From: Apostichopus japonicus
Lineage: Eukaryota; Echinodermata; Holothuroidea; Aspidochirotida; Stichopodidae
Direction: 5' to 3'
NCBI RefSeq assembly: GCF_037975245.1
Contig: NC_092582.1
Span: 17,820,577-17,884,576, forward strand
DNA: 64,000 nucleotides
Notes under the pieces: generated by a model
Databases searched by the model: none
What the model saw: only the letters and a program-made list of their open reading frames with translations
What the model was told of the DNA's origin: nothing
Translations under genes and position numbers: made by a program
Shown here: positions 5,393 to 62,827 of the stretch, piece by piece
Numbering within the stretch: the stretch's first letter is position 1
How the letters are laid out: every line of letters begins with the position of its first letter

Positions 5393-5542
5393 TTAATATT
5401 CCAACTGCCTCCTCAGCCCAGATTTCTGTAAGTTGCTCTGGACAGATTCGAGTACCTTCTCGCTGGATTGCTTTAACCTCTGTGCCAACTGACAGGCCGC
5501 AAAGAGACTGTCATCTAGCTCTCTTTCGTCCTCAACTTCGAC
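5393..5542 (-). CDS. AKNA: AKNA last coding exon, C-terminal helical domain (residues ~1495-1543)
   Basis: Acceptor TAATCAG before 5542, stop TAA at 5395-5393. It encodes an acidic start (VEVEDERELDDSL), then a helix with FAACQLAQRLKQSSEKVLES and a basic end. The pattern (D-x-LF-AA-x-LA-x-x-x-K-x-SS) resembles the C-terminal helix I remember at the end of vertebrate AKNA. Its phase matches the preceding exon. Confidence 0.75.
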   Translation of the reverse strand, partial: VEVEDERELDDSLFAACQLAQRLKQSSEKVLESVQSNLQKSGLRRQLEY

Positions 5543-8500
5543 CTGATTACAAAACGATAGAAAAGCAATAAAATTGATCAAAGATCCATTGCATCATTAA
5601 AAAACTATAATAATAATATTTGCTTTTTATATAGCGCTTTATACCAGCGATAGGTCTCAAAGCGCTTTACAGACGTTATATTACCCCTGGTCAATGATAA
5701 CCTGTCCCAGAGACAATACCTCCAGTCGGCAGCGGTTATATACTGCGCCCAATGACAAGTTACCTCACAGGTACCCATTTAACCCCTGGGTGGAGAGAAA
5801 ATGTCCTAAAATTCTTTCAACAAATGTCATAGTGCAATAATTGTGAGAAGACAGGTAAGTGTGAGAGCAAACATTAATTCCACTCTGGGCCTGCATCTGT
5901 GTCTTGCAAACTTTCCTCAGTGTGTAGGTCAGTTTTTTTCTGAGGCCAAGCAGGCAAATAAAGCCTTCGGGGAAAATAGGCTTAGAACTTTACACTTCAC
6001 GTTGGCTGGCTATCCAATTTACAGGTTTAGCTTACTTTGGAAGTCTTTCAGTTTGGAAGACCATTTCATATGGGGAAACCATGGATTGCTTCTGGATGCA
6101 GTACCAACTTAACTTTGGCTGGTTCAAACTCCTAGCTATGGCAGATGATCATTTCTATTGCTTCTAACGCCGCATCTTTTATCCATTTGACCAGACAACA
6201 GGTCCTCCTGATATATATATATAACTATCATACTAAGAGTCAGAAAGGTTTTCATTCACTGAATAAACAAAGTCACTAGATGTTAAAAAATAAATAGAAT
6301 ATGAACGATAAGTTAGCATCTTTGTCAACCACATACCTGAGAATGAATTTCAACCTTTCTGGCCTTTCGACTTCCAGATCTTCTCACAGGTGTCCTACAA
6401 TAACATACAAAATGGGAAAAGTTTTACTTTAGATATTGCAAGTATAGGGAAAATGTTTTGTACCATACCTACATGAACCGCAATGATGCTGCATCGACAT
6501 ATGTTTTATGACTGAGTTGATTACATAATTTCAGCAGGCTTGCTTTTATCCTGCATAACAGATGGATTGAGAACAGAGGTAAGCCAGAAAGCTAAAAGGC
6601 TAAGTGATTCCTAGCCATGTTTTACAGTGTATGATAGAGTTGTAATGTAAACTGTTTACAGGCAGTTTTTACACTGAATGGATCCACATCCCATGTGTGA
6701 AGCTCACCTAAGTATCAAGTTTTTAGTTAACATGTTAGCAAGGTAATCTGATATTGACCTTTGTTGACCTCATATGACCTTTGACCTCAGTATTTCACAA
6801 TAGGATTCTCGTACTAGATAAATTGGATCCATATACCATGTATGAAGTTCATTCCAAGCTTTATTTTTAGAGTTACCGTGTTTGCATGGTTTCAGAATGT
6901 GACCTGTTGACCTCACATGACCTTTCACCTCTATGCAAAACAAAAGGGTTCTTGAACTCAATAAGGTGCATCCACATACCAAATATGAGGTTCACCAACT
7001 ATATAGTTTGTGAGTTAAAAGGAGTCACACAAACTCTCACAATCAATTCCTACTACCTCCTGCAAGGCATTAAAAAACACATATTGAGGGAGCTATCCAT
7101 AAATAGCTAAGTGGGTCATAACATTTTGAATGCAAACCATGAGCCAGTATGTTTCATCCCAAATCACAATTTCTTTGGACACTTAACAACTATCCTAACA
7201 ATGAGGCATTACATTTTCTGCTTCTGTCAACTCTGGTAGTCGCATGAGATCATTGTTGTAAATTCTGAACATATTCTGTAAGGCAATCTTTGAAAAGTCA
7301 GAAGCAACTGTAATTTGAATATGACCCAGAGGTCACAACAAACACCACGTCAAGCTTTCATACCGGAAAAGCCAGGGAAATGTGACACAACACTGGCACA
7401 GGCAAATAACAAATAAAGTAGGAAGGCAACAAAATTTTATTTTAAAGTAACACATCTTTCTTAACAAGGGAAGTGTTTTTCCATATGTGGTCTTCATGCA
7501 GTCATTTTGTAATTTCTTCAAAACAAAATATATACAACCAAAGTGAGAACCAAGTAAGGGTAATAATTCAAAGTGATGACTCGCCTTCTATAAATGATTT
7601 CTTCGACATCTGATTCTTCCACCTCTGGTGGTTCATCTCTGATGTAGTAACGGCCTTTGGAAGAAGGTAAGAGGTAGACTGGTCGAGCACCATCGATGGT
7701 AGCACCATTAGAAGAGGAGAGAGTTTGCGGTGGTGACACGGTGACAGTCTGGGGGAGTGTATGCACCTGGGGACTGGAAGACAGGACTGTGACAGGTACT
7801 AAGGATGGATGGTGGCCGTAAGTGACATTTCCCTGGGGTGGTGGTGTCACGGTAGTAGTGTTACCGATGACGGTTCCCAGGGTAGCATGCTGATGAGGTA
7901 AGCTACCCCCTGCTGCAACTTGCGCTAAAACAGGTGCCTGCATTACATTAGGAGTACCTGGTGCATGTTGCATGACTGCTGGTGTGGAATGATAGATAGG
8001 AGAGCCAGCCGGTACGTAAACGGTCTGATTGGGTGACGTCTGAACATAAGCCATGGGGGCCTGTTGCAGAGGAGGTTGTTGTAGTTGGTGGGTAAAGTCA
8101 GGCCCTATTTGAGCATGGTGGTGCACCCCACTCCCATTGCAATGTCCACATGGCGTTGACGTTTCTCTTGGGGCCGTGCTTATTCTCTGAGGTCGTTGCT
8201 CCATGGATGAAAGCGGCCGGTAGTTCTCACGACTCTGTTCATACTCTACCTCTCCACCACCACCACCATGGGAGTAACGCTCCCTCAGATGCCTCTGGTC
8301 ATCGTCCTTGCTCCTATAAGTAGTTCTTGTCCTCGGATTTCTTCTACCAACGGAATACTCTAACTGCGGCGAATTATCATCTTCATAATATTCTTCCGAC
8401 GGTTCGACTTGAACACGAGAACTCGACGTAGGTATAAATTTCTTCCTTAAGGTTTCCCTTAGAGAGTCCCGAACACCGGACGATGCCTTTAATCGGTCTA

Positions 8501-11500
8501 CTGGATCATCGCTCCGATACTTTTCCTTCTGCGGTAGATCTGTTCGGTATGTCCTACGTGGGTGAGGTGTAGATGTCGCCGACGGGGTAGACCTGACACC
8601 CGATCGGTTTGCAGCTTCCGAATCCCGGAGATCTTTCCTCAGTAGGGCGACCTCGGCCTTCAGCTCCGCTAATCTTTCGCTCTTTGCGCTCCTGTCGCTC
8701 TTTAGCGAGCTTCTTCTTTCGTACCCGACTGGAGTCGTGCCCCCCGTGTAGCCCTCGTCCGCAGACATGTATTCCCTCTCTCCGGCACTGGAGTAGTTAC
8801 AACCTCCCTCTGACGCCGGAGATTTCCTCCTCGTCCTCTGTCGATTCTTTGGCGATGACAATTCCTGTCTCAGCATGGCTAGTTCCTCTTTGAGAGCCTG
8901 TAATTCCTCGCTCTTCACACTCTTACTCACGGAAGATGGGACGTCGCTGTTTCTCCGATTACGTAACCTCTCTAACCGTGGGTCGACCAATCCGGCACCA
9001 GACTTTTGCGATTTAGGCTCTGTCATTCTCTTGGAGATAATTTCCGATCGGATCTTGTCTCTCTCTGACGTCTTGGGAGTTACTCTGGATGAGATGCTCT
9101 CTGTTTTTCTGGATGATGGTGGCTTTTTGACTCTAGGCTGTTCAGATCGCCTTTGAAAGTCCTGCAACTTTGGTTTAGATGGGAGCGGAGACACAATGTG
9201 ATGTTGCGACGATTGGTGACGAGATGGGGTGGCCGATCTCCGGGACATTCTTACTGGTCTCTCAAACGATCCTTGGGAGAAACGAAATATGATTGATTGA
9301 TTGAATGATTGATTAATGGGTTGACGTAGAACAGCAGCAAAAGTTAGCAGAATTAAATTAATTACATCTAGTACATCTTTGGATTCTCCCTTGTACTGAT
9401 TGTGTCCAAAATCTAAAGTTCCTTTGTTACCTTTGTCAACATAATGCTGTATTGAAAATATAACCACTACTTTTCAGTCCATGGAAAGAAAAATAAATTC
9501 ATTTAAGAATCAATGAAAAAAAAAGAGATTTGCATCACTTTGAGATCAAAACCATTTTGGACATCTTAAACTATTCACCTAACATTTTACTAATGAACAC
9601 TTACTAAAGCAATTAGATTTAGTAAATTTTTGCAAATCTCACCATTTTTGCCTTCTACTTCTTCCTCTTCAGAGGTGGCCACGGTGACGGGTTCCAACTT
9701 CCTTGAGGGCAGGCTTCTCCTCTTGCCCTCACTCTGTGATGATGAATGCTGCCCTCTTTCGGACAGTTCTTGTATCGGGGTGTGATGATGCTGTGCTCGC
9801 TTTAGTCTGGACTCTTCAATCCTGGTGACGCCTGATTCTGGCCGCAACCTTGAAACACATAATGAGACGGAACTTTACGCTTTACAAGGCAAAATAATAA
9901 ATATAAACTCTGTATTTTGCTTCAACTTAGAATACTGGTTATGTATTTGAGCCTTACTTAACAATACATTTGAGACTTAAAATAGAAGGATAGATACTGT
10001 CAAAACTTTATACAAAACATATGCCAAAACCAAACTCTTTTTTCCAAACATCCCTCTCTCCCACCCATCACCACCCACCCCCTTCCCTTCCCTTCCCCAC
10101 TCCTTCACAAAGAGAGCTGCTAACTCTAAAATGGCTCAAATATTTCCCTGTAACTAAAAAAAATGAAGAGCACCTTATGAGGAAATGTAATTCTCAACTA
10201 TAATTTAATTACACTCTAATTTATATTCTGTACTCATCAACTAATTTCACACAACTGTGAACTGCAATGAACACATAACCTATTAATTGCAGTCATTGTT
10301 TATGTACATGTTACTGCTATTGTCTTACTTCACCTCAGTTGTATTGTTTTTACACATTTTATCTTTTGCTGAGTCTCTTCATGTACTTCTTCCTCTTCAT
10401 TCAAATGTTTCTCTGTCAGTTTCCCCCCCCCCCCCCAGAGGACTTTCCAGAAGATTATCAACAACCCAATGTCCCCCACCCCCCTACTCCCCCATGGGGG
10501 ATGACATACCTGTGGGATCCACCGGTCGTCTTACTTCTTGGAATGTTATTTTGTTTCGACTTCTGCGACTGTCTGCTGCCCTCAGATCCCACAAATCCAC
10601 TGTCCACTTCGTGTTCTGGAGATCTAGGGTGGCTGCTACCACTGTCTATAGCCGTGTCTGACGCTTTCCTTGGGAATGCCGGTAAAGGTTTTACAATCTA
10701 TATCAAAGAGAAAACAAAACTCATCACATTACTGGTTCTGCTTCCTATGAAACTTGTTTGTTTGCAATATTCTACACTGCCTGAGAGAGTGAATAGTTGT
10801 TAAAGATGAAATGTATATGTTTAAGAGAGGAGAAGAGGAAAGAGGGATGGGTGAAGAGGGAAATGAGCATCCATCTTAGCTTTGTACCCACATTCTCAGT
10901 ACTACGTAAATATCCATCCAACCTTACCTTTCTTGGGTTTCTGGTCTGTTTCTCTTCGGTAATGGTTGCTTTCCTCTCCTCCAGAGAGTGAGCAGAGGAT
11001 GGGGTATCTCTCCCACTGCTGTACCCCTTCTCTTTCCTCTGCTTCAATGACTGTCTTCTTTTGGATGGCGTGTCTGACCAATCGGATCTAAATTAGGCAG
11101 ATAAGAGAACACTTCAAGTCCATATTAGAACCAGAATGCCCAACAGGCTTGGTGATTCCTTGCCACAATCTAGTGTAACACTACACACATTCTGGTATAA
11201 CACTAAACACATCCTAGTATAACACACATTGCAGTATTGCACTGTAAAAATTCTAGTACAAGACTACACACATTTTAGTCTAACACTACACACATTCTAG
11301 TTTAAGACTACACACGTTTTAGTATAACACTACACACATTCTAGTGTAACACTGTACACATTCTAGTAGAACACTACACACATTTAGTAGAACACTACAC
11401 ACATTCTAGTATAACACACATTACAGTATAGCACTGTACACAGTCTAGTATAAGACTACACAAATTCTTGCATAACAGGACACACATGATAGTATAACAC

Positions 11501-14500
11501 TGTACACATTCTGGTACACGACTACACACATTCTAATATAGCACTGCACACATTCTAATATAACACTGTACACAAGACTGCACCATTGTGGACACCAAGG
11601 TTCTTGCACTTATGTTGGCCGAGTATGTAGTTCATTCAAGGTTTACACTTGGAACTATTGCATTTCAAAGCTTTCACACTGTGACGTGTTTTGACCTCAA
11701 ATGGAATTCAACATTAACAAAAAAACAAACGCTTCCTTCATTCACTAATGCAGACCCATATACAAAGTATGATGTTCAAACACCATGTACTTTTTTATTT
11801 ATTCTGAATATAAGGCAAAGCATCACACACACCCACACATGCCTCATCATGAATACATACATTCCATTTGCCATTGACAAGGAACTAACAGCAAAATAAA
11901 ATCAAACAATATTGTACACCTTTTCTGTTATATGTTCAAGTTAATCCAGGTGCTATGTATTACCTATATAAAACCAGGTGCTATATATTCCCTATAAAAA
12001 CCAGGTGCTATGTGTTCCCTATTTAAAACCCAGGAGCTATGTATTCCTTATATACAGGGATGTAAGTGCAGCCACAAAAAAAAACCGGAAAACTATTCGG
12101 AGACCCCGGGTGAATGCCGTCCTTACACATCCTACTCCTAGCTCTGACTACTTACACACTATCGTTATGTTAGGCTAGCTCAGAAGTATTAGCGCTAACA
12201 CATCTTACCCCTAGTTCTTACTACTTACACACTATCGTTATGTTAGGCTAGCTCAAAGTTACGAATACGTCGCAGCGAACTACGGAATAAAAAACAGTCT
12301 CACATTCGAATGCGATCACAAATATCGACTTTCATATGCGTATCCCGTAGATTTCCGCCGCTCACAAATATCACAAGCGTTAATTCCGAAAGTTATGTCG
12401 AGCACCAGCAGTTACGAAGATATTAATTAGCAGTCCAATCAACGTGAATTAGGCAAGGTTTTTCAACGACAGAAATGAGCTATGGCGATTTGAAGTTTGC
12501 ACGTATGCAACGATATTCACATGGCACAATGTTGTACAGTGCAATGCGATGATGCGAAACAGGAATGGTATTTTGATTGATCGATGAGTGAAAGTTGAAG
12601 TTAGCTTGCTGCAACGGGCCAGGCATTTTTGCCGCGTTGTGTCTTTGATATTCGAACAATTTTGTGGAACTTTATTGGAATTAAAAAAAAACGGATTTCC
12701 GTAAAAATACGGAAGACTTACATCCCTGAAAAAAAAAACCGGATTTCCATAAAAATACGGAAGACTTACATCCCTGTATATAAAACCAGGTGCTATGTGT
12801 TCCCTACAGATAACCAGGTGCTATGTATTCCCTATATAAAACCAGGTGCTATGTATTCCCTATACAAAACCAGGTGCTATGTATTCCCTATATTAAACCA
12901 GGTGCTATATATTTCCTATAAAAACCAGGTGCTATGTGTTCCCTATTTAAAACCAGGTGCTATGTATTCCCTATATAATACCAATTGCTATATATTCCCT
13001 ATAGATAACCAGGTGCTATGTATTCCCTATATAAAACCAGGTGCTATGTATTCCCTATATAAAACCAGGTGCTACGTATTCCCTATATAAAACCAGGTGC
13101 TTTGTTTTCCCTATCTATAACCAGGTGCTATATATTCCCTATAGATAACCAGGTGCTACGTATTCCCTATATAAAACCAGGTGCTATGTATTCCCTATAT
13201 AATACCAATTGCTATATATTCCCTATAGATAACCAGGTGCTATGTATTCCCTATATAAAACCAGGTGCTATGTATTCCCTATATAAAACCAGGTGCTACG
13301 TATTCCCTATATAAAACCAGGTGCTTTGTTTTCCCTATCTATAACCAGGTGCTATATATTCCCTATCTATAACCAGGTGCTATGTATTCCCTATCCAAAA
13401 TTCCCTTCAAAATGCAAACTCATGTGCAGTGGGAATTGGTTCTCTTAAACTGCACACACTTAAGATACATAGGGGGATGTTAATCTGCTAATTTTGAGAA
13501 GGGATGTCCAATAAATACCTTTCTGATATGTACCCATGTTCACCACCATCTTTGGAAGTCATTTCCAAGTTGTCTATTTCCTGAGAATATAAAAGAAATA
13601 CGAAATGTTACATAAAGTAGGACAAAATAACAAGAGTGCAGAAGGTTTCAATTATTACAAACTATGTATATCGATGTTGTGATGGAGACTTTCATATACC
13701 TCTATACTAGGATCTATTTATTGTCACAAATGAAGTCTTTCCTGTCAAAAATGGTCTCTATGGTAACTTGAATAACAATACATCCAGGGCACATCAACGA
13801 AAGGGTTGCAGGGAAGTGGAAAGTCCACAATACATAGACTTTGTGTAATGTGATGCTTTCACAACAACAGGGTAGTTTAGAATGTTGCATACAAAAATAG
13901 GAAAATGTTCACCTGAGTTATACCAAAAGTTAGGAGGAAATACATATCAGCATATCTTAGGGAAGCATTCTATGAAAAACAGATGAAATAATTGTAACTG
14001 CAGTTTTCTAGTATAGCAATGACAAATTATAAAAGTTTATACACTTATGGATAAACCTCACTATACTAATGTGTTGCTTGTGAATTAAAACATCAACAAA
14101 CACATTGTAAATTCTTGAAAAAAATAAAAAATGAAAGATGTTTTCTGTTATTTCATGACATGAGACTCTCCACTTCAGTTAAACTTGGAAAGAGCAATAT
14201 TTTGTTATTTTCCCCGCTCTTTTTGAATTCATGACCTCCTCCCAAACCTACTGTTGACACATCCTTCTATCTACAGCTATTGTAGTGTTGCTTCAATTCT
14301 TTCCATTTCCTTATAAAAACAGCAAAGAACTGAAACAATACACACAATCATCCAGTGAAAATGAGAAGGGACTTTTTACGGAAACTTCCTTTGTTTCTTT
14401 AAGAATGTATAATTAATATATAATTATAATAATAATAGTATATAATAATTCAAATTTATTATGTTTAATCCAAATTGCAACAGACCCCTTTAAATACATG

Positions 14501-17500
14501 AACTGAATAAGGAAACATGGAAGAAGAACATTGAATATCTTTGCCAGCAAATTCCAATATCAAACACCACACACAATGAAACCTGCATAAAGACTAATTC
14601 AGTTTCCATTACTAGTCACCTTGACAAGCCTTTGTATTTCCTTGTCTCGCTTCGGTGTTCCTGGAAGCTGCTTAAGGGCTTCATACCTGTCAAGAAAAAT
14701 GTTTGAACTTTACATCTTTTGTTACTTATTCTTTAGGGTGAAGAAAGGTAGAGGGGAGATGGTGGGGAGGGGGAGGGGAGGAAAATGGATTACTTGGAAG
14801 TTCACCAAAATTTCATGTTTCAAATTTCAATCAAGAGCATCATTTTTTGTTCAGACTGAAAGTCATGATTTTGACAAAACAAATGATCATTTTTGTTATT
14901 TAGATCTATTTTGCCACCAACAAAAAAAGTTAACAAATTGAAACTCAAGTGGATGGTGATCAATAAGAATCAATTTTTAAGAAAATTTGATAGCCATGTA
15001 AGTTTGTTTTAATATAATAGATAATATTACATTTGCTTTGTTCTTCTTGTTTGGTAAAAGGGGACTGCTTGTTATTCCACTATAACTTCCTCTGTACTCC
15101 AATATTACCCAGTCTGTAATATATATATACATACATACACACACCCATACATGCACACATTCATGCATACACACATATATTACTTCATACTGTATTAATG
15201 TTTACTTGGAAACATACTGAATATTCAATACCGATTAACTTTCTTTCACACATCAAAAAACAGTTTACATAATAGCACCAACAACAATTGACATCTCCAT
15301 CATCAAATATGCATTGAGCTCCCTGACCACTACCTTCACTAGCATTGTTCATTCTGAGCATTGTTGAAAAGCAAAACCATATTTCTCAGAACCAGAAAGT
15401 GGATATCATATAATGGATAACACTTACATCTGGCAACTTTCCAATAACTTGATTCAATTATCTCCATATTCAAGTAGATGGTAACTTGGCCAATGTGAAA
15501 ACACTTCACTCACACTACAACTACCTATCGTGGACTCCCAGTGTCTTTCTGTAAAACATCGCTCATACTCTGAAATCTCCTACAGTTTCGTTTTGAACGA
15601 TAGCATCAATTACATAGAACTTCAATTGAAAGTTTTGTTAAAAGACATAGAATATAACATGATAAATATAAAATGAATATCTTTCACTTTTTATCAAGGA
15701 CTGTTCATTAGTCTTTGCTTAAACTCGACTGTCGTCCTCAAAGACGACCAGATTTCACTTTCTGTTCAGAGGATAGACTAAACTAACTTTTATTCATCAC
15801 AAACTGGCACATTAGCAATATCAACCCAGCCATGAAAGAGAACTTCAACGTCTAAAAGGTGAATTCAGATATGTATGTGAGTCCCTGGTGAGATGTAAAG
15901 CAAAAGTCCTTGACTTATAATTGGTTTTTCATGTTTGGTGTTAACTAAATTAATGAACTTAGTTTATGAGTCTGTTGTTTCAACACTGAACAGAAGATCT
16001 GTGTATAGTTAGTCTGCAGTATAGTGGCAATGAATGCATCCATGTTATTCTCGACAAGAGATATCAAACTCACTGTTGAAGCATCTGACTGTACTCCGGG
16101 TCGCCCTGAGGGCCACCCTGCGGGCCACCCTGTGCCTTCTTTGGAATGTCTTCATCGACACTCTTTTGTCGAATACTGGAATGTCTACTTCGTGTTGCCA
16201 TTGTTGGCGGGTTGTTCCGAACATTTTCCTGGATGCAAAGAAATATGGCAGATGGGATCGAAAATCAGATTTTAAAAAGACAGTGATGACGGAATGATAC
16301 CATCTGAATTGTAAGCTGTAAAGGTTTATCTACAAAATGGAGAATACTAATGGGATAAAAATTATGGGGGTGGGGGGGGGCAATACTTTTGAAACTTTTA
16401 AATAAAACCAGTGTGTAATAATATTGACTATAAGTACATGAAACGGTAAGGCGTTTCAGTCACACCACCAAGACTTGATCGAAGGCTTCTTTCGGTACGT
16501 CAAAGGCTATTTTCCGGAACATACATCTATCTGTCTAATAAACTTTCATCAACAGCTCAATGAAACCAACCTCCACTTTTTCCTGCAAATCTTCCAACTG
16601 TATCCCAACTTGAAAGATCTGTCCCTCTAAGGACCTTTCGGGGTCAAATTGATTATCTTCTGAATCGAGAAGGACCGAGTTCCATCTCTGCTGCTCTCTG
16701 GCCTCTTCCCGTCTCTGCATGTAGTCCTCCTCCAGCTCACCGTGCGCCTTCTTTAAATGGTCAAAGAGGGATTCTTGCTCCTCTACCGGTACTTGTTTGG
16801 TATCAATGGCCCTCTCTAGGAGGGGTACCTAGGTGGGGGAAGGTAGAATGTTGTAATATCTTATTTTCCATTAGTCCTGTATGGTAATGTATGTAACATA
16901 AGTCTCGGGCTTCAAAGAATACAAAGGAACGCAATATTACAAAAACAACACAAAAAAGACTGAAAAATTGAATAATAAATTTACAGGGCTCCACTGTACT
17001 GAACAGATTTGAGCTGCCATTCTGGCAAGTTTGTTATTATAAATTATTTGAAATGTTCTTTCAACTTGACATATTGTATAGACTACTGGCAGAGGAAACA
17101 GTTTCTTCAACGGCATAAACTGGTGATAAAATATGGATTTAATATTAAAGTTGGTCAACTACTTTGGGTCTCCCTATTGACTGTTCTGAAACCAGAAACC
17201 TTGAAACATTTATTTCAACTTCAGTTGCAATGCTGCAAGAGGATTTTTGAGATTCAAGAGCAATGACCATATTCTGGCATCTTCTGTGGACTTTAATATT
17301 TACATGAAACAAGAAACTTTCTTTTTCAAGCAACATATATATCTATATATATATATAATTGAAATATTGTAGTGAGTTGGAAAGTCCACAACAGTGAAAA
17401 AACTTCCAGCCTCCACCGGGATTCGAACCCGGGCCTCCCGCTTTATATGTTTACAAATGTAGTAAAACTGTGAATTTGTTATGACAACAATTTTATTCCA

Positions 17501-20018
17501 AAAGTACCTGTTGGGCAAGATGGGCTACAGAATATTTCATTTCCTGAATGACCGTCTGTGTGTGATGTTCTTGGATGGGTTGACGGTCGTTCCCTCCAAA
17601 GGTTGCATTCTGTGGTGAGGAATCTGACTGTTTCCTGCAAATCAAAGATATTCATTATACCTGTTAATTATTCATATCAAATCAACTTTGTTAATTAATA
17701 TTTTACATCAAACATCCTCACTATGCATGTTAATGTAAATTCTTGAGGTTCACAGTCTTGTATTAAGGCAAGGGCTTCTCACGTGACTTTTAACTGTACA
17801 ACATTTTACAACTGGTCATTGGTGACTTGTAACTTGTAGAAGAGAGAACATCGCCAATAACTACAGCATAAGAGAAATACTTGGTTTAAATGTTATTTCT
17901 ATTTTGGGGTATCTTGTAACATCTTGGTCTCTTGGTGATCAATTTGAAAAAAAAAATTGAAGCTATAGATAACAATTTGCAGATATGCTGTCCTTTATTT
18001 ACATAGTAATGATGTAACACCTAACTTGATGAACTAATAGTGCTCACTAAAGGTTTTTTTGGATTAGCTTTCATGAATGCCTTAATAATGCAATTGCAAT
18101 ATGAGAAGCCATATTCTCATTAACAGCACCAAAAAACTGTTTTACTGAAGAGTGTGTCTACGTTATGGGTACTTCTATGGGTACTGTCAGGGTACTGCGT
18201 ATGTTATGGGTACTGTCTATGTTATGGGTACTGTCTATGGGTACTGCCAGGGTACTTCCTGTGGGTACTGTCTATGGCTACTATCAGGGTACTGTCTATG
18301 TTGAAATGATCAACGATGGACATTAATATCCTAACCGTGTTCAACTTGAGTGTGCTAAGAGTACTGAGATATCCTTGTTTGATAAATAATGAAAGCCTTC
18401 CAAACTAAGGCACCAGGTCTTGGTTGGTTACTTTTCACAAAACACTGACTTTGTTGTCTATAATGTGACCAGATTACATTAGCCCTCAATTGCTGGAATC
18501 TCACCTTGATGATTCTCCCATAGAATACCTTCCACGTTGAGGCACACCTATATCAAACGCCATGGGTCGTTTCGCCGGGGTCAACTGCCCTCTTGATATC
18601 TGACCGTTTGGTGGAGGATCAGACCGAATGTTGACCACTGCTCCAAGCCTCAGATGGTCGATTGTGTTCTCAGCTTCAGCATACTTGGCCAGTAACTCAT
18701 CGTACTCTATCTGAAGCTGATGGTTCACATTGGTCGCTTGCCTCCTGGTCTTCCTCTCTTCCGTTAGCCTGGAGCTTAGCTCCTCCTTGGAGCGAGGAGT
18801 ATCAGACTCCGCCTCCGTGTCAGTCATGTGCGCCAGATTTAAGGCCGGAATTCTGGAAGACGTTCTGGCTCGAAACGCTACGGCCTCGCCTTTGGTTTGT
18901 GCATCGTCGCCCTCGGAATTCATGGAAGTATCTCCGTAGGGAACGAAAGCTGATTCAACCGTTCTCTCTCCGGATGGAGAGGAAACTCTCCCTTTCATTG
19001 CGGTGTCTCTCGAGCTCCTCCTCGAGGGAGGTTTCTTGAACTTTCTGCCATTCACTGCGACAGGTTTGAACCGTCCGAGACTCACGCTGCTCTCGCTATG
19101 CCTTCTGTCGCCTGCGTCACTTCCAAATTCCTGTACATTGAGGGCAGCCTCTTGGATAGCTTCCTTCAGACCGGCGGGTATCACCGTCTCGCCGAATTCG
19201 CTCTGTTCGTCCGTGGCGTCGTCGTCGTCATCAAATGCTCGCTCTAGATGTGAGGGCGGTTGCTCCTGACTCAGAGACACCATATTTTCGGACTTTATGG
19301 AATCGTCCATGATGTCCTCGTAACGATCTCTCCTACCAGGGGAGTTCTTGATATTATTGTTAGAGTTTGTGTTACTTCCGACGGATCGGTCGGAGAGGCA
19401 AGATTTTTCGTGCATCCCTGACGAACCCGCCCTAGGAGTCTCCTCCATGTATTTCATCATGATGATTTCCGATGATGGATCTTGGTCCTCGTCTGGCGGG
19501 GCACCGTCCGACAGAGATATGCCCCTTACTTCCTCTGCATCCTCCTCCTCCCGTAAATCGTCCCCAGAAACGATCCCATTATGTCCTCGGTACTCGTACT
19601 CTGATCCACTCTGTTCTTCCATCGAACTACGAAACGAGTTATCACGTAAATTGTCTGACTCATTTCCGCTCCTATTTGACTTTCCTCTCCTGCCGGCAGA
19701 ACCCCCGGAGGAGGATTCGGTCCTTCCCTGGCTGTCCACCGATCTGGTTCTGCAAATTTCCGATTTGTAACTCACGTCAGGGTCAAATTCGTCGTCGTCG
19801 GCAAATCCGTTTTGAGAGTGCAAGATTTTCTCCATCCGCTCAAACTCTTGTAACGATTTCCTCGGCCTTTGGAGATGCTTTCTACGTCGTCCATTTTCCA
19901 GCTTTGGCGTCTTCGAGGAGGAGCTTTCCGATCGGTCTAGGAAGTCGTTTTCTTCTTCATCCTCGTCGACGCCCTCGGTCATGAAGAACGATCCGTTCTG
20001 ATCCATGTCACTGTGCAT
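5393..20018 (-). CDS. AKNA: AKNA-like centrosomal/AT-hook family protein, 12 coding exons, ~1543 aa
   Basis: Joined exons (minus): 20018-18505, 17634-17508, 16828-16571, 16228-16074, 14686-14620, 13580-13519, 11087-10928, 10697-10510, 9848-9643, 9271-7585, 6394-6337, 5542-5393. Every junction keeps frame. All introns are GT-AG except the one after 7585 (GC-AG). Total is 4632 nt. The start is fixed by an in-frame TAA 24 nt upstream within the same exon. Identification rests on the coiled coil ending AEAENTIDHLRLG (residue ~449), which I recognise from vertebrate AKNA, then a DPPP/Q segment, a DSGFVGSE motif (~813) and a helical C-terminal domain. Vertebrate AKNA is of similar length (~1440 aa). 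It organises microtubules at subdistal appendages of centrioles and was first described as an AT-hook regulator of CD40/CD40L. No canonical RGRP AT-hook core is visible here, so the centrosomal role is the better inference. Confidence 0.82.
5603..5860 (-). repeat. SINE-like repeat with LINE-type 3' tail
   Basis: Read on the minus strand it contains AAATGGGTACCTG, a body, then TAAAGCGCTTTGAG and AAGCGCTATATAAA, and ends in (ATT)n. The paired AAGCGC blocks plus ATT tail are typical of SINE/LINE tails common in marine invertebrates and resemble the LINE tail at 31.9 kb. It sits in the last AKNA intron. Confidence 0.65.
6337..6394 (-). CDS. AKNA: AKNA short basic exon (residues ~1475-1494)
   Basis: 58 nt between acceptor TTATTGTAG and donor CTCAG|GTATGT. 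In the frame required by the neighbours it is open and encodes TPVRRSGSRKARKVEIHSQ, while one other frame hits a stop. The phase fit to both sides is the main support. It could act as a nuclear localisation or nucleic-acid binding patch. Confidence 0.72.
6660..7000. repeat. Two tandem ~150-bp copies of a TGACCT-rich dispersed repeat
   Basis: Two copies (from about 6680 and 6825) share GGATCCAYATRCCATGTRTGAAG-like and GTTGACCTCAYATGACCTTT blocks. They include TGACCTTTGACCT at 6775-6787, a perfect DR1 arrangement of AGGTCA half-sites read on the minus strand. Related but weaker copies occur near 11600-11790 and 42590-42670. Confidence 0.75.
7436..7441 (-). terminator. AATAAA poly(A) signal candidate
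   Basis: Perfect hexamer on the minus strand, about 77 nt beyond the alternative AKNA stop at 7518. It would serve only the read-through isoform, because the main gene continues to 5393. Confidence 0.35.
7518..7584 (-). CDS. AKNA: Possible read-through C-terminus of AKNA (alternative terminal exon)
   Basis: If the GC donor at 7584 is not used, the frame continues 21 residues after YRR to a TGA at 7520-7518. The added sequence ends NYYPYLVLTLVVYILF, directly after a basic triplet, which looks like a tail anchor. A canonical minus-strand AATAAA at 7441-7436 lies ~77 nt past this stop, so a short polyadenylated isoform is possible. It may equally be non-functional intron sequence. Confidence 0.3.
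7585..9271 (-). CDS. AKNA: AKNA large exon with paired coiled coils and Q/P/T-rich region (residues ~913-1474)
   Basis: Acceptor CTCCCAAG before 9271. It encodes GSFERPVRMSRRS and then two related short coiled coils, SEELQALKEELAMLRQEL and SERLAELKAEVALLRKDL, about 80 residues apart. An Arg/Ser-rich stretch with STPHPRRTYRTDLP follows, then a CxxC motif with HH (TPCGHCNGSGVHHH), then ~230 residues of low-complexity Gln/Pro/Thr/Val, then GRYYIRDEPPEVEESDVEEI. The frame needs a phase-2 exit. The only fitting donor is AGAAG|GCGAGT, a GC-AG intron. Otherwise the frame runs on to a stop at 7518 with a hydrophobic tail. Confidence 0.82.
9643..9848 (-). CDS. AKNA: AKNA exon (residues ~844-912)
   Basis: 206 nt, acceptor TTCAAG, donor AATG|GTGAGA. 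It encodes a charged segment with EESRLKRAQHHHTPIQELSERG and an acidic end, TSEEEEVEGKNG. It leaves one base, which the next exon completes to Gly. Confidence 0.83.
10510..10697 (-). CDS. AKNA: AKNA exon with DSGFVGSE motif (residues ~782-843)
   Basis: 188 nt, acceptor GATATAG, donor CACAG|GTATGT. It contains DTAIDSGSS followed by EVDSGFVGSEGSRQS. As I recall, DSGFVGSE is a conserved short motif of vertebrate AKNA, so this exon is second only to the AENTID coiled coil as evidence for the identification. DSGxxxS-type acidic phospho-motifs resemble beta-TrCP degrons, and vertebrate AKNA is described as PEST-regulated, so a degradation role is possible here. Confidence 0.85.
10928..11087 (-). 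CDS. AKNA: AKNA exon, Ser/Lys/Arg-rich (residues ~728-781)
   Basis: 160 nt, acceptor ATTTAG, donor AAG|GTAAGG. It encodes a basic, probably disordered segment with SDWSDTPSKRRQSL and GYSSGRDTPSS. Both contain S/T-P sites of proline-directed kinase type. Frame agrees on both sides. Confidence 0.83.
11160..11580. repeat. Minisatellite of ~22-bp units
   Basis: About 18-19 units of the form ACACTACACACATTCTAGTATA, with frequent small length and base changes. It lies in the AKNA intron between 11088 and 13518. Confidence 0.88.
11585..11790. repeat. Degenerate TGACCT-family dispersed repeat fragment
   Basis: Contains GTTTTGACCTCAAATGG and, ~80 bp on, ACCCATATACAAAGTATGATGTTCA. These match in order the blocks of the 6.7-kb repeat. 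Strongly diverged. Confidence 0.4.
11955..12054. repeat. 27-bp minisatellite, left part (interrupted)
   Basis: Four units of AACCAGGTGCTATGTATTCC-CTATATA. The array is interrupted at 12055 by an inverted-repeat element and resumes at 12777. Confidence 0.88.
12055..12776. mobile_element. 722-bp non-autonomous element inserted in a minisatellite
   Basis: Terminal inverted repeats CAGGGATGTAAGT / ACTTACATCCCTG bound the segment. TATATA lies on both sides (12049-12054 and 12777-12782). Removing the element and one TATATA restores a near-consensus minisatellite unit, so the flanks act as a 6-bp target duplication. The right terminus is duplicated (ends at 12728 and 12776), and a ~58-bp internal block ending ATGTTAGGCTAGCTCA is also doubled (near 12124 and 12197). 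No coding capacity. Confidence 0.8.
12777..13400. repeat. 27-bp minisatellite, right part
   Basis: About 23 units of the same 27-bp repeat, with a higher-order pattern: the block at roughly 12985-13110 recurs almost unchanged at roughly 13200-13350. A plus-strand frame through it reads as a repetitive peptide only because 27 is divisible by 3; it is not called as a gene. Confidence 0.9.
13519..13580 (-). CDS. AKNA: AKNA short exon (residues ~708-727)
   Basis: 62 nt, acceptor TTCTCAG, donor AAAG|GTATTT. It encodes EIDNLEMTSKDGGEHGYISE and leaves two bases for the next exon. It lies directly beside the 27-bp minisatellite in the downstream intron. Confidence 0.8.
14620..14686 (-). CDS. AKNA: AKNA short exon (residues ~685-707)
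   Basis: A 67-nt exon between acceptor TTGACAG and donor AAG|GTGACT. It encodes YEALKQLPGTPKRDKEIQRL, a helix with an LPGTP turn. It completes the split Gln codon from the previous exon and leaves phase 0. Too short to recognise alone; supported by frame and splice continuity. Confidence 0.82.
14700..16070. other. AKNA intron without recognisable features
   Basis: AT-rich intron between the exons ending 16074 and starting 14686. It has a G-rich tract near 14750-14780 and short TA/CA dinucleotide runs at 15120-15180. Nothing else is seen. Confidence 0.5.
16074..16228 (-). CDS. AKNA: AKNA exon with short Gly-Pro-Gln repeat (residues ~634-684)
   Basis: Acceptor CATCCAG before 16228, donor CA|GTGAGT after 16074. 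It encodes a basic Ser-rich segment, then AQGGPQGGPQGDPEY. The GGPQ repeat comes from a 12-bp tandem repeat at about 16100-16130. 155 nt, ending with two bases of a split Gln codon. Confidence 0.85.
16571..16828 (-). CDS. AKNA: AKNA exon with long charged helix (residues ~548-633)
   Basis: 258 nt, phase 0 at both ends. It starts VPLLERAIDTKQVPVEE and is dominated by a Glu/Gln/Arg-rich helix (HGELEEDYMQRREEAREQQR) and a second amphipathic helix with regularly spaced hydrophobics (FQVGIQLEDLQEKVE). This looks like coiled-coil scaffold sequence. Donor GAG|GTTGGT is at 16571. Confidence 0.85.
17335..17470 (-). repeat. tRNA-derived SINE fragment with Pol III B box
   Basis: The minus strand carries CCCGGGTTCGAATCCCGG, including a perfect B-box core GGTTCGAATCC at 17429-17419. 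A short body follows, ending in a TA-rich tail at about 17336-17356. A full cloverleaf cannot be drawn: no 5' acceptor strand pairs with GGTGGAGG at the expected ~65 nt. This is therefore a SINE or tRNA-like relic, not a tRNA gene. Confidence 0.55.
17508..17634 (-). CDS. AKNA: AKNA exon (residues ~505-547)
   Basis: Acceptor TTGCAG before 17634, donor CAG|GTACTT after 17508. It encodes KQSDSSPQNATFGG and then a predicted helix ending EMKYSVAHLAQQ, which continues into the next helical exon. Length 127 nt fits phase 2 in and phase 0 out. Confidence 0.85.
18149..18302. repeat. Short minisatellite in AKNA intron
   Basis: Irregular tandem units of GGGTACTGTCTATG (TTAT), roughly 14-26 bp, occur about nine times between 18149 and 18302. 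Confidence 0.8.
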
Positions 20019-21287: not shown

Positions 21288-21302
21288 TGTCTCCCGTCTA
21301 TT

Positions 21303-22712
<1,410 letters not shown>

Positions 22713-22765
<53 letters not shown>
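22713..22765. repeat. (TA)n microsatellite, right part
   Basis: Continuation of the TA array interrupted by the element ending at 22712. Confidence 0.95.
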
Positions 22766-31901: not shown

Positions 31902-32235
31902 ATAATAATAATAATAATAAATGAGACTTATATAGCGCCAATCAGTAAAGTCACTGCTCAAAGCGCTTTACAAAGAAAGCAGATTAATTTACAAGAGAAC
32001 AAGTGAAAAGATGGGTCTTAAGTAGACTTTTGAATGTAGAAATTTTAGAGCAAGTTCGAATGTGATCTGATAACTTGTTCCAGAGATAAGAGCCAGAGTA
32101 TTTGAAGCTTCTGTACAGTTGATATGGTATGAAAACCAGTTGGTGAGCAACAAACAAAGCCCTAATCGTTATATTTAAAATTGCAGATATGAAAAAATAA
32201 CAAATCCACAAGGAAAAAAGGTGCTTAATAGACAC
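31902..32235 (-). pseudogene. LINE (CR1/L2-like) reverse transcriptase C-terminal fragment and 3' tail
   Basis: The minus strand encodes YSGSYLWNKLSDHIRTCSKI followed by STFKSLLKTHLF, the standard end of CR1/L2 reverse transcriptases (LWNxLP-xIR-xFKxxLKTHLF). After a stop come CTTTGTAAAGCGCTTTGAG, GGCGCTATATAA and an (ATT)n tail ending at 31902. It is 5'-truncated, as is usual for these elements. Confidence 0.75.
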
Positions 32236-34108
32236 TTTGAGCAGTAGAATGGAGATGCTGTCATTAATCGGTAGTGCCCAGTCATAGAGGGGAGTAGTCT
32301 TAAAAGGCTACCAGTTCACTCCAGGCACGTTACAGCGAGCGTGCTGAGGTTGTGAGGAGACAGGTAAGCCAGGAAGCAAAGTAAACTGCCGAGTTATCCG
32401 ATTATTTTGTCAGATTTTCAGGCCAAACACACTTCACCGGAGTCTAAATGCCTTCCCAAGATCAAATTTGCAGATTGGGACTATGTTATATGAGCAAATT
32501 AATTTACTACTCTTGAGGGGGAAGAGCAATTCAAGGCCAAAATTAAAGACAGTATATTTAGTCGCTTTAAAACATCAACAAACAGAATCTAGATGGATAT
32601 TTGATTATATCATAGAGCTCATAAACAGTAAACATTGATCACCTAAAAACATAAATCCTGTGGTAATAAATTCAATTTAAAAGTGACAGGAAATGGCCAA
32701 CTTAATTACAACCCAAAAAGGAAGTTCCTTAATGCAGCAATGCCAGCCAAACGAGCTGTTTAAAGAAGCTTTCTGTGTTGAGTTAAAATGGTACTGTATA
32801 TTTATATCCATTGGTCACTTAGTGATTGACACTTGGAATGCATTTACAACAATGTACTTCAGTAGCTAATGAATAAAGTTTCCATTTATATGAACCACCA
32901 AAAAAGCCAGAAATAGTTAATATTTACCAGTTTCAACATTTGCACAAGATCTTTATTGATCTACAGGAAGTTCAGGAACATATGAGAGTCAATATTTTCA
33001 AAATCAAATTTCAGCATTTAACACTTCCTTAATTATTGTTTATTCAGCAAAAAATTATCTATGGAACTGTTTTAGTTGGACTATTTACAAATTTCTATGG
33101 AAAAAAAACTTAGTCAAATTGTTATGTACAGTCAACCAAATTAATTCAATAAGCTGCTTTAAAAGCTAGATGTGTTTTTCAGCACATAATACAGTGATAA
33201 CCTTTGTAAGCAATGAATCCAGGGTATCAAACAATGCATTCTTGTTTTTCTAACAGTAGGCAGGATGCAGAAGCTACAACATCTTAGGCAATGACTGATA
33301 TGGCAGCACATTAGTTCTAGATTATCAATCACATGTATTCATTTATCAAACAACATTTTAAACATTCAAACCTAACCCTGTACTATCCCGACACATCAGG
33401 ATCATACGTTGTCCAGAAATATTTGGAAAAATCTGGAAATAAGTTCCAGATAATAAATTTTCAATGCACATGTAGTATTTCTATTTCATACTGTACATGT
33501 ATAGTATTTTACATTGAGAAGTACAGTGAAGTTAAGTTAAGGTCACACTGTAGCTTTTTGGCTGTTGGATACTAAACAATGGGTGCTTTGTTGATTTCTG
33601 ATTACAAAACCATATTGATCTTTTCATGGAATTTTAAGTACCAGATTGCAATGGTAATACAATACATGCTGTTATATAGTTATGTGTAGTGCTTATACAA
33701 TTCTGAATAGTTAAATTTCTGGCTCAGTTTTTTCCAGAATCCAGATACAACGGTCTGACATCAGGATAAATTTCCAGGTTTTACAGCACGGTACAATTTA
33801 ATGAGGTGTGACACATTTCTTTACGATCAAAAGTTTTCTAAAATTGTATTGATTAAAATAATTGGGCAGTTGACAGCCCATCCTCACTACTCAACTGACA
33901 TCGACAAACACTAGAGGAAAAACAATGTTTATAGTATAGTACATGTGAAGCTTTTTTTCAATTTGCTACACTTTTTCAATCAAAACGTTAGAAGATTCTG
34001 TGAAACCTGTGACAACTTCTATTTTACGGCATCGATACAAAGCTGGTTACCATAACAGAGAATCGTCGTTATCCACTTCATTTGCTCTCAAAATTTGCTC
34101 TCAAAAGT
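32236..34108. other. Gene-free intergenic DNA
   Basis: AT-rich, no recognisable gene. The part next to 32236 may still be LINE-derived. Nothing else is seen. Confidence 0.45.
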
Positions 34109-53120: not shown

Positions 53121-53132
53121 GATGAACAGATT

Positions 53133-55931: not shown

Positions 55932-56010
55932 CCCTATAGGCTCTAAACGCAAAGTTGTAGTAATAAAAATTTCGCGTCCATCCCTTAATTTATGGCAAGC
56001 CCTATACACA

Positions 56011-57695: not shown

Positions 57696-57697
57696 AT

Positions 57698-58402
57698 TTA
57701 CTGCTACAGTATGTAAGTCTGTTATATCCAATGTCAATTAATTTGTTACATTATGTAAGTCTGATATATCCAATGTCTATTCACTGTTACAGTATGTAAG
57801 TCTGTTATATCCAATGTCTATTTACTGTTACAGTATGTAAGTCTGTTAAATTCAATACCTTTTTACTGTAACAGTATGCAAGTCTGTTATATCTAATGTC
57901 TATTCACTGTTACAGTATATAAGTCTGTTAAATTCAATACCTATTTACTGTTACAGTATGTAAGTCTGTTATATCCAATGTCTATTTACTGTTACATTAT
58001 GTAAGTTTGTTATATCCAATGTCTTTTTACTGTTACAGTATGTAAGTCTGTTATATCCAATGTCTATTTACTGTAACAGTATGTAAGTCTGTAATATCCA
58101 ATATCTATCAACTGTTACAGTTTGTAAGTCTGTTATATCCAATGTCTATTCACTGTAACAGTATGTAAGTCTGTAATATCCAATGTCTATTCACTGTTAC
58201 AGTATGTAAGTCTGTTATATCCAATGTCTTTTTACTGATACAGTATGTAAGTCTGTTATATCCAATGTCTATTTATTTGTTACAGTATGTAAGTCTGTTA
58301 TATCCAATGTCTATTTATTTGTTACAGTATGTAAGTCTGTTATAACTGATGTCTATTCATTGTTAACGTATGTACGTCTGTCATATCCAATGTCTATTTA
58401 CG
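57698..58402. repeat. ~41-bp minisatellite (about 17 copies)
   Basis: Units of ACAGTATGTAAGTCTGTTAT followed by ATCCAATGTCTATTTACTGTT repeat head to tail, with substitutions and some units lengthened to TATTTATTTGTT. The lengthened units create AATAAA on the minus strand at 58277-58272 and about 58319-58314. Confidence 0.93.
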
Positions 58403-58749
58403 ACCTTAAACTCCACCGTTTGCATAATCTAATCAGGCACAGGGATATCAAAATGAAAACCTGTCTTTTGAGAACTTAAAAGAGCATCAATATTGTCACC
58501 ACATTCAGCATGCTAAAAACTGCTGGGAGTTTTCAATCTCCAAATAATTGCCAGTGATAGAGGATGGTTCTCGTGGACAAATTAAAAGTCTGACGCTCTG
58601 AGGCTGGCAGTAACAAATTTTCCTCTCTTTTCCACTCCTCCTCCTCCGCGTCATATCTTTGGATGATGCCGGAAGACCTACTTCCTGAATGGCTCCCCTC
58701 TGAATCCACCCTTCTTCATTTGGGCCAGTTTGCTCTAAAAATTCTTCAC

Positions 58750-59300
58750 TCAGTAATCCCACTCGTCCTTCTTCTCGCCCTCCTCGCCGGCCTTGTTCAG
58801 TGCCTGAGAGAGTTCTTTGACCTTATCCAATATCCTCTCTCGATCGCTCTCCTTCAGTCTCTTACCGAACTTCTGCATGAACTTATCCGGATGCCAGGTC
58901 CGTTGGTGAGTCCTCAGGTATTTCTTTAAGTCCTCTGCACTCATTTTAGCTTTGTCGCTGACCAAGATGGTGACCATGTGATCGGTATTGTCCGTGCTGC
59001 CCGGCCAAGGGATGTCGTCGAATCCCACGTCTTCTCCATCCTCCGCCTCGAAGGCTGCCATCCTCTTTTCGTATCTCAATCTCATCAACAGTGTGTGGTT
59101 ATGCCTATCGGGTCCTCGTTTCTGTTTCTTCTTTTGTTTGGCGTTCCGGCTATTCTCATTCTCAGTTTTCCTCTTCTTCTGCTCTCTGGATTCAGTCTCT
59201 TGCTCTGGGAGCCTGCCTCCCTTTCTCTTCGCTCTGTATTCTGATGTTAACCTGTCCGCCCAATCATCAAACGACTCCTGTGGCTTCTCGTCGCCAAAAC
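58750..59300 (-). CDS. NFKBIL1: NFKBIL1 exon 4 (residues 173-355)
   Basis: Acceptor TTTTCAG before 59300, stop TGA at 58752-58750. It encodes GFGDEKPQESFDDWADRL, a Lys/Gln-rich nuclear-type basic region (~215-240), FDDIPWPGS and the conserved helical end with an HPD tripeptide at ~309-311, followed by ILDKVKELSQALNKAGE and an acidic tip. Confidence 0.94.
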
Positions 59301-62300
59301 CTGAAAAGACAGAGAGAAATGCATTTTATAACCCTGCTCAACATTACCGGGTCTCCACAGATTGGTAGCAAGTAGTGACAGGTAGAGGCTGGCACTTATT
59401 TTGTTTCAAACAGTTGGTAAACATGAACGTACGATTGTCAAAAAAAAGTAAATTCCCTTTTCCCAATCCTCGAAAATATTCTTATGACATGAAAACTTAA
59501 AACTAATAATATTCAATTGTAACAGGCTTCTATTCGACTCCCACTCACAACTACCTCCCCACCCCACCCCTTTTCTGTAGTTTTCCCTTACTGTTTTCAC
59601 TCAGTCAAATTTGTCCTCTCTGAGTACACTACATTTCACATTCATCATTCTCTGACCAAATGAGTCATTCAACAAGTACTTAGTCCTCAAACTCATACAA
59701 AATTATGCTTTTTGTTTATCAATATCTTTCTACATTAACCCTTTATGCAGGATTCTGGTATAGTATACACCTAATACCCCAATGCTCCTTGCTTGAAGGT
59801 GCTCAGCGACTAGTACAAGATATGCTACAGTCAGAGGCTCCTGTTAAATCAGTTTTTTCAATATATTTTTAAAGTGAGTGCTTATATTTTAAACATAATC
59901 ATCTTTGTAGTTTAAGGAATGTTTTGTTTTACCATTCAGTACTGAACATACTAAGGTTACAATGTAAAGCTGTTATACATCTTCTGCACTTTTGTAACAC
60001 TTTTGTGGTTTGGCCTTTGGCTAAGAGACATCAGATAAACGATGACCTGTGACCTTCAAATGAATTACCTTCGTAATAACTGTTTTCTGGTAAGTTATCA
60101 GTCATATCGTCTTCCCATGCCCTGCTCAGTTTCTCCTTCCATTCATCCTCTTCAGTTCTCACTTTCTGCAATAATAAATGATAACAAAGACCTCCATCAA
60201 TACATGAGATATATTAAAACAAAAATATGCAAAAAAACTGATTAACAATGTTCACTCAACCAGGGAATAATTTGTCCGGCATTGTATCGCATTATGCTAT
60301 GCAAAATGGTCAAATTACTATACAAGTCCACAGTTGTATAGCTGGTTTTTTTAAGTCAGGAACAATACTTATTCTGAGACAAAATTTGGAGTCTTCAAAA
60401 CTGCTACACAAACTTTGAATGGTAAATTATTTCCTGTAAACACCAGCTTTTTCTTTGGTTTTGTTTTCACATAAATTTGGCAAAGGACGGTTAAAATTTA
60501 ACCCCTTTCTTTGCCACTGCTTTCTGATCTTCCTTTCTTGAACAATTTCCCTTTAGTATGAGATTTACGTGAATAAATATTCTACAGAACACTGTCTTCA
60601 TATTCTCATACTAAACTATACAAGCCAATTTGCTTGCTCCCTTAGAAATTTAACACTATGGTTAGCATCCTTCAAGTTGTATAGCAAATTCACAATTTTC
60701 AAGGGTGTGGAACATTCAGGAACTTACTTTAAAGCCAGCAGTTTTTTTACTCATAATGGCTAGTACACATCCTTCATGCTAAGCTCATACAGAGTAAACT
60801 ATATTGAAGGAGCCGCTTTTGTTTAGAAGAAACAGTTATTAAGAGATTATACATTACTTCTTAATTCATCATTCAAGTTTAAATCCATTAGAGCAATTCA
60901 CATGTTTTGAGGATTTTAAATGTTCTCGTGTTTACTTACTTGTCCAATTGTCATGCCCTGATCTGTAACAAACTTCTTTAGAAGATGACGGGCTGTTTGT
61001 CCAGATTTATTCTCAATGTCCAAAATGTCTGGAGGACTGTACTTCAGAATTGTGAGAGCAATAGTTTTGAAATCTGAAAAGCAGAATACATGGTATATTA
61101 GCAATGAAATGAGTTTGGCATTTCTTTCTGTAGTACTATAATATTACTTATATGCTGTTACCAGACTTACAACAATACCCACTGCTCAAAAAACTTTTGT
61201 GTTTAATCTTTATTATCAGTATGCAGGTTACCTTGGGGAGTGCTCAACCTGCAACATATACAAGGTGGATCTTTTAGTTTGTATCATGTGGAATTATAAA
61301 AAAGTGTGGTATTTTTATGGTTACCTTAGAAGTGTACAGTGAAAGGTTGTTAAGCCTACTGTGCACTTCTAAAGGCTACGTCCCAGAATGGGTGCACCCA
61401 TGGCAACATCGGTACTATTTGGGTGGAGGCAGTAGCTATCATGGAACATGCTAATTTGTGTGTGGATGCCAGTGTATGGATTGAAAAAAGTTCAGTGAAT
61501 GGCTAGATGGTCTGGTGTATGAAATCCCAGCTATAGACAACATGTGCATGCCACTGGTTCTAATGGATTATAATGCATGGTCTCATGTGATGCTGTATAG
61601 CTGACCAGTAAAAGTGTGGTTGTGTCCCTGGTATACCTTGCAGACTGTGATGCAATGGTATCAACTCTATCAAACATCAAATTTTGCCTGCTGTTGTTTG
61701 GCACCCCCATGTTTAGTTGGTGGTGAGATGTCATTCATGTTCTTCATTCTTCTGAAGAATCTGTACATTTCATTTTTCGGCTAGATTGTGCTAACATCGA
61801 TGCATGAATGGTGTGTATTTCACAAGCTGCAAAATGTATCACAAGGAAAAAGTGCTTGAGATGTTGAAAGGACCCATCGATAAAGATGTCGGTTTTTATG
61901 GACTTGACCTTGTATGTTAGGGAGGGGCAATAGCATATTTCATCAGCAACTGTAAATAAGTGATCATTCAAGTCTGCAATCTCCATTTGGTTGATTTGTT
62001 TACAACATTGACATTTTAGTTGCAGGGCTGACAGCATTTAAAAGTAGGCCTAGCCTAGGCATGCAGTGACCTTGGTCTAGAAGCAATGAAGCAAGTGGAT
62101 GCATTACATTTATCTTGTTTTGGTCTGAAGTTAAGAAAGTGGATGCCTGCTACTGCTAGTATGCATTAAAGCGATACCCTTGAAAATAACTGCAATCATT
62201 AGTGGAATATCACATTCACAAAGACACTACCTAGTATTACTAGATAGGGCTGGCCTATAGACATTTCTGAATGAGTTTGTTCTACATGCCATGATACGTA

Positions 62301-62827
62301 ATAGCAAGGACTAAGCATAAACTCAAAAAGACACTGCTGCTATGTAAACGTTTCTGACCGTGTCATTGAGAACACTATCAAGTTCGCCTAGGTCTAGTAT
62401 TATGGTAACCACATAAAAGCGTGTGACTATAGCCTAATTATACAGACTGGCCTATCACTATCACTGTATCAGTTCTGCGACAGAAGAACGGATTTACAAT
62501 AATTGTTACAGAAATGTAGAGTAAAGATTAACAAATCTAACCCGCATGGTGACCAGATAAAACTCTTCTCAAAGCAACGTGCAAGGCAGTGTCTCCTTTG
62601 GTATGGTCCAGCAAGGCTGGGTCTGCGCCCATTTGCAGCAATAAAACTACCATCCCACGATGACCACGTTCACATGCCATGTGTAGTAGAGGCTGGTATT
62701 TGTGTATAACAAGTCTTACGGAATTGATATCAATTCGTTTGTGTTCCTTTATAAAGCGTTGCACTTTTGACACTGAACCGTCCAGAACATATTCAGCTAA
62801 CTTTTCTCGTCTTGATTTTCCCCCCAT
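58750..62827 (-). CDS. NFKBIL1: NFKBIL1 (I-kappa-B-like protein 1), 4 coding exons, 355 aa
   Basis: Exons (minus): 62827-62542, 61073-60940, 60165-60069, 59300-58750; 1068 nt, all phases agree, all introns GT-AG. The start ATG at 62827 (MGGKSRREKL) is the first in frame after an upstream TGA. Ankyrin-type sequence covers ~40-140 (PLLHMACERGHRGMVVLLLQ, GDTALHVAL, NKSGQTARHLL). A charged middle with DEWKEKLSRAWEDD and ESFDDWADRL follows, then the family C-terminus with FDDIPWP, WHPDKF (~308-313) and LSQALNKAGE. Human NFKBIL1 has 381 residues and the same order. The family is nuclear, linked to NF-kB control and mRNA splicing, and encoded in the human MHC beside the TNF genes. Confidence 0.93.
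60069..60165 (-). CDS. NFKBIL1: NFKBIL1 exon 3 (residues 141-172)
   Basis: 97 nt between ATTGCAG and GAAG|GTAATT. It encodes KVRTEEDEWKEKLSRAWEDD and an acidic end, matching the E-x-EWRQKL region of the human protein. Confidence 0.9.
60940..61073 (-). CDS. NFKBIL1: NFKBIL1 exon 2 (residues 96-140)
   Basis: Acceptor TTTTCAG before 61073, donor ACAA|GTAAGT after 60940. It encodes DFKTIALTILKYSPPDILDI followed by ENKSGQTARHLL, the last ankyrin unit. 134 nt, phase 1 in, phase 0 out. Confidence 0.92.
61074..62541. other. NFKBIL1 intron 1
   Basis: The intron contains a 97-codon minus-strand frame (62037-61744) and a 67-codon one (61734-61531), both slightly less AT-biased than other intron DNA. 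Together they may be a decayed mobile-element ORF, but I recognise no family. No other feature is seen. Confidence 0.35.
62542..62827 (-). CDS. NFKBIL1: NFKBIL1 exon 1 (residues 1-95)
   Basis: The start is followed by a basic SKxxRREKL stretch and the first ankyrin units, ending RRVLSGHHA plus one base. Donor GCGG|GTTAGA at 62542 gives the right phase and the spacing seen in the human protein. The nearer GTCACC donor would remove four residues and is weaker. Confidence 0.85.

Follow-up and report, generated by a model that had tools for sequence, protein, structure and literature searches.

The chromosome-scale contig C22 of the sea cucumber Apostichopus japonicus is best read as an unduplicated counterpart of the human MHC paralogon, with AKNA as part of its gene set. 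We estimate a probability of about 0.9 that C22, as a single chromosome, goes back to the linkage group of pre-vertebrate age behind that paralogon, AKNA and NFKBIL1 included. AKNA therefore likely belongs to the ancestral MHC-type linkage group.

The DNA analyzed is a 64-kb stretch, C22:17,820,577-17,884,576, referred to here as the window, and positions within it are counted from its first base. The assembly comprises 671.6 Mb in 35 contigs, and C22, with 26,795,855 bases (26.8 Mb), accounts for 4.0% of the genome.

AKNA, NFKBIL1, and the Gene between Them

The AKNA orthologue occupies positions 5,393-20,018 on the minus strand and was recognized from its AKNA domain and from the reading of open reading frames (ORFs), with ~10 coding exons discerned by eye. 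The open frame of the domain-bearing exon (16,538-16,828, minus strand; domain match at 16,571-16,765) scores 31.4 bits against the Pfam AKNA model PF12443, for which the curated cut-off is 28.1. Across the 671.6-Mb genome, a profile search with PF12443 returned this match, of 30.1 bits, and no other at E ≤ 0.1. The remaining coding exons, read from ORFs, lie between the stop at 5,393 and a putative first ATG at 20,018; the joins between them were made by eye and are likewise putative. A minisatellite consisting of 22 copies of a 28-bp unit (window 12777-13394) lies inside the gene span. In vertebrates, AKNA is reported as a centrosomal and AT-hook protein.

The NFKBIL1 orthologue (58,750-62,827, minus strand) has four exons that encode 355 aa, with ankyrin repeats and a J-like C-terminus. 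Its exons (62,827-62,542; 61,073-60,940; 60,165-60,069; 59,300-58,750; minus strand), with GT-AG splice sites, join into a single open 355-aa protein. The N-terminal ankyrin repeats match Ank PF00023 over the Pfam cut-off (E 1e-7), and the J-like end shows a weak match to an Hsp40 chain (E 0.23). Alignment to a manually entered human NFKBIL1 sequence is nearly full-length and scores 312, against 74 for the best of 200 shuffles. The last exon has a single genome match at E ≤ 0.001. Just downstream of the gene is a second minisatellite, with 17 copies of a 41-bp unit (window 57696-58401).

About 38.7 kb separates the putative ATG of AKNA from the stop of NFKBIL1. Within this gap lies an intact 1,161-aa ORF on the minus strand (53,120-49,635) that is derived from a pogo/Tc5-like transposase, as indicated by HTH_Tnp_Tc5 (E 5.4e-7) and DDE_1 (E 6.6e-6) domains, both over the Pfam cut-off. 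A PDB search with this ORF returned no sequence match at E ≤ 0.1. Past its transposase part the ORF continues into a long acidic C-terminal extension, and it may represent a host gene that arose by domestication. The original prediction that AKNA and NFKBIL1 share a strand, with one transposase-derived gene between them, is thus borne out in both gene identities and in the pogo-like ORF. A transposon origin of the finding as a whole was considered and rejected; among the three long genes of the window, the 1,161-aa ORF is the only one that is transposon-derived. A further ORF, at window 31984-32307, looks by eye like the C-terminus of a reverse transcriptase of LINE type. Within the window, no Rfam family was found at its gathering score. 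This arrangement does not imply that the two genes are functionally coupled, and nothing in the data ties AKNA action to NFKBIL1.

Genes in the Surrounding 324 kb

At least seven non-transposon genes can be named in the 324 kb made up of the window and 130 kb on each flank: DAXX, OGG1, TSC1, AKNA, NFKBIL1, an FNBP1/TRIP10-type gene, and SPOUT1. The region holds 80 exon candidates, part of which were run against Pfam; the count is thus a lower bound and the gene list is incomplete, since many of the candidates fell outside the family search. Six candidates without a Pfam match (L028:344-571, L011:661-870, L010:2208-2294, L028:8624-8701, L020:1411-1518, and L023:261-365) are left out of the count.

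DAXX lies at 17.757 Mb of C22 on the minus strand and is supported by Pfam (E 2.4e-19) and by a PDB match to DAXX (E 1e-36). It is followed by an OGG1-type gene at 17.790 Mb on the plus strand, where HhH-GPD scores 26.5 bits (cut-off 26.2) and the name OGG1 was assigned by eye. TSC1 (17.798-17.815 Mb, minus strand) is the nearest named gene to the left of AKNA, and matches Hamartin in both Pfam and PDB (E 1.8e-11 in the latter). Hamartin was matched by 7 of the 12 frames from this stretch that were given to Pfam, six of them above the cut-off; a PDB search with the exon frame L021:7703-8383 found nothing, and another TSC1 frame gave a match. To the right of the window, the FNBP1/TRIP10-type gene (17.906-17.952 Mb, minus strand) carries TOCA HR1 and SH3 domains according to Pfam, along with an F-BAR exon. 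The identity of that exon comes from its PDB match to CIP4 and formin-binding protein 1, its Pfam match (CM_2) being below the cut-off. Finally, SPOUT1 (C9orf114) is found at 18.006 Mb on the plus strand (PDB C9orf114, E 2.8e-19).

For six of the seven named genes, namely AKNA, DAXX, TSC1, NFKBIL1, the FNBP1/TRIP10-type gene, and SPOUT1, the human orthologue maps to 6p21 or 9q32-34; the position of AKNA is taken from a paper that puts it at 9q32. On C22, a stretch of about 250 kb holds all six. Human OGG1 is located at 3p25, and the OGG1-type gene sits inside the C22 block. The same region also contains an identical short peptide-coding stretch at C22:17748481-17748531 and C22:17884427-17884477 (window 63851-63901), which, with its copies 136 kb apart, is probably a dispersed repeat.

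Markers along the Chromosome

The window alone cannot distinguish linkage of AKNA and NFKBIL1 from chance; markers along the chromosome do. The marker list was fixed before the genome searches, and a Wnt control was added afterwards. Five marker families have their only locus in the genome on C22: ATP6V1G (V-ATPase G) at 1.18 Mb, PRRC2 at 4.13 Mb, a BRD2-type BET gene at 9.90 Mb, PBX at 22.76-22.81 Mb, and NOTCH at 25.25 Mb. For the proteasome, 24 matches were grouped by the author into 14 loci, and the one locus of the 14 on C22 is PSMB7 (E 1.3e-31, vs 9e-22 for the best PSMB10). Because AKNA shares the contig with NFKBIL1, PBX, NOTCH, BRD2-type BET, PSMB7, ATP6V1G, and PRRC2, it probably formed part of that ancestral group of linked MHC-type genes.

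Two other families gave a different result. A genome-wide search in which three candidates were scored found no member of the TNF superfamily on C22, the only TNF-domain matches at E ≤ 0.01 being two loci at C2:10751237-10751560 and C10:4899464-4899703; with three candidates scored, divergent TNF ligands could be missed. The single RXR-type match, to the AF-1 model, which is a poor proxy for RXR, is on C8 (E 0.08 for the stretch; 34.1 bits, over the cut-off when taken with its neighbours in the frame). Thus, of the six families named in the original prediction as a check on its proposal, PBX, NOTCH, BRD2-type BET, and PSMB7 turned up on C22, and TNF ligands and the RXR-type match were located elsewhere. 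Its description of the linkage as a "remnant" is unsuitable, since the markers run from 1.2 to 25.3 Mb, over 24 Mb of a contig 26.8 Mb long.

If TNF and RXR are taken as misses, the binomial probability of finding five of seven families on C22 is 2.0e-6, and that of five of eight, when each TNF locus counts separately, is 5.1e-6, for families that were picked as known markers of the MHC paralogon and not at random. The calculation excludes the multi-copy proteasome, and fibrillar collagen (COLFI), also on the marker list, was left out. Controls are few and consist of the Wnt family, the remaining 13 proteasome loci, and the ankyrin matches listed. None of 12 Wnt loci, grouped by the author from 41 matches, is on C22. 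For ankyrin, 1 of 132 is on C22 among the matches listed, a rough control given that 150 of 549 candidates were scored and that the NFKBIL1 exon was missed.

Origin of the Linkage

From the gene identities established on C22, we infer a history of descent, duplication, and loss. AKNA and NFKBIL1 would both have been residents of one pre-duplication chromosome, belonging to a pre-vertebrate linkage group from which whole-genome duplication would have produced the human MHC paralogon (1p/1q, 6p21, 9q, 19p). In vertebrates, reciprocal loss after duplication would have left AKNA at 9q32 and NFKBIL1 at 6p21. On C22, where no duplication would have intervened, the two would still be together. AKNAD1, a human relative of AKNA, is reported at 1p13.3 (PMC4543987), and the two positions fit two arms of the paralogon.

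The proposal that AKNA and NFKBIL1 were linked before duplication, with AKNA in the ancestral MHC-type set, is supported at the level of the chromosome, where both genes share C22 with four of the six markers it named and with ATP6V1G and PRRC2. Their closeness is another matter. Genes seldom leave such chromosomes yet shuffle inside them, so the ~39 kb spacing may be old or recent, and a common chromosome plus shuffling accounts for it equally as well as ancestral adjacency.

A stronger version would have DAXX, TSC1, AKNA, NFKBIL1, the FNBP1-type gene, and SPOUT1 as near neighbours already before vertebrates, in a conserved microsynteny where genes of 6p21 and 9q32-34 were interleaved. The 6p21 or 9q32-34 positions of six of the seven named genes in the 324 kb speak for it, as does the 9q position of TSC1, next to AKNA. 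However, any block of C22 would look alike if all of C22 were the same linkage group, extensive internal rearrangement of gene order is described for such groups in one study (PMC7269912), and human AKNA and TSC1 are many megabases apart. We consider such a tight ancestral cluster unlikely, and equally doubtful that the DAXX-TSC1-AKNA-NFKBIL1-FNBP1-SPOUT1 block is a surviving proto-MHC nucleus in true gene order with AKNA as a founder member. If it were, class III genes of 6p21 and genes of 9q32-34 would have been physically interleaved before the vertebrate duplication. With so tight a block, any invertebrate genome assembled to chromosome level offers a direct test of gene order before duplication.

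That AKNA and NFKBIL1 came from different ancestral chromosomes and were joined by a lineage translocation is very improbable. Some mixing would be consistent with an OGG1-type gene inside the block and with TNF and RXR-type matches off C22, but coincidence does not sit well with further 9q and 6p genes in the flanks, nor with PBX, NOTCH, BRD2-type BET, PSMB7, ATP6V1G, and PRRC2 on the same contig. Misassembly or misidentified genes can be given hardly any weight. Although a single assembly was examined, neither the 64-kb window nor the 324-kb region contains a single N and the markers are distributed over 24 Mb of C22; moreover, AKNA, DAXX, TSC1, NFKBIL1, and SPOUT1 each pass their own sequence tests. 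Descent of C22 from the MHC linkage group is the preferred explanation. Counting against it are the TNF loci on C2 and C10, the RXR-type match on C8, and the OGG1-type gene inside the block.

Relation to Known MHC-Type Linkage Groups

The amphioxus MHC-linked region was reportedly described by Castro in 2004. As in that region and in the linkage groups of chordates and deuterostomes, linkage on C22 is kept at the scale of the whole chromosome (PMC7269912, PMC11175523). Deuterostome chromosomes are described as derived from 24 ancestral linkage groups (PMC11175523), and chordate linkage groups as retaining their gene content through rearrangements of gene order (PMC7269912). Unlike in that region and those groups, AKNA, NFKBIL1, TSC1, DAXX, the FNBP1-type gene, and SPOUT1 are here found inside about 250 kb.

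The inferred pre-duplication "0R" MHC set includes rxr, notch, pbx, brd, psmb5/6/7-like, and C3-like genes (PMC10751288). Like this set and the human MHC paralogon (1, 6p21, 9q, 19p), C22 joins PBX, NOTCH, BRD2-type BET, and PSMB7, along with PRRC2 and ATP6V1G. In contrast to both, it is without the TNF ligands detected, and RXR, sought with the poor AF-1 proxy, was not found on it; C22 also differs from the human paralogon in being single and unduplicated. A vertebrate study assigns TNF ligands to the pre-duplication MHC chromosome and to a second chromosome (PMC7674686), and the location of the detected ligands off C22 is a counter-result that bears on models with TNF-ligand ancestors on that chromosome. 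According to another study, a larger proto-MHC chromosome that joins the MHC and NK complexes with the leucocyte-receptor complex is an artefact produced by fusions at a later time and divides into seven proto-vertebrate chromosomes (PMC8302630). C22 agrees with a narrower group that carries most of the framework genes tested.

Pre-MHC linkage groups of invertebrates are already known, and AKNA is a modest addition. In a literature search that covered sources other than subscription journals and supplementary tables, no paper was found that links AKNA to the MHC, its paralogon, or synteny with NFKBIL1, nor one on conserved synteny of DAXX, TSC1, NFKBIL1, FNBP1, and AKNA. The value of the present case is that AKNA is placed in the ancestral MHC linkage group from an unduplicated genome, with the group seen on a single 26.8-Mb contig.

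A separate observation concerns the Wnt loci, four of which are located inside ~172 kb at C23:17,269,876-17,441,960. This group presumably corresponds to the old Wnt9-Wnt1-Wnt6-Wnt10 cluster, and such clustering suggests a slowly rearranging genome.
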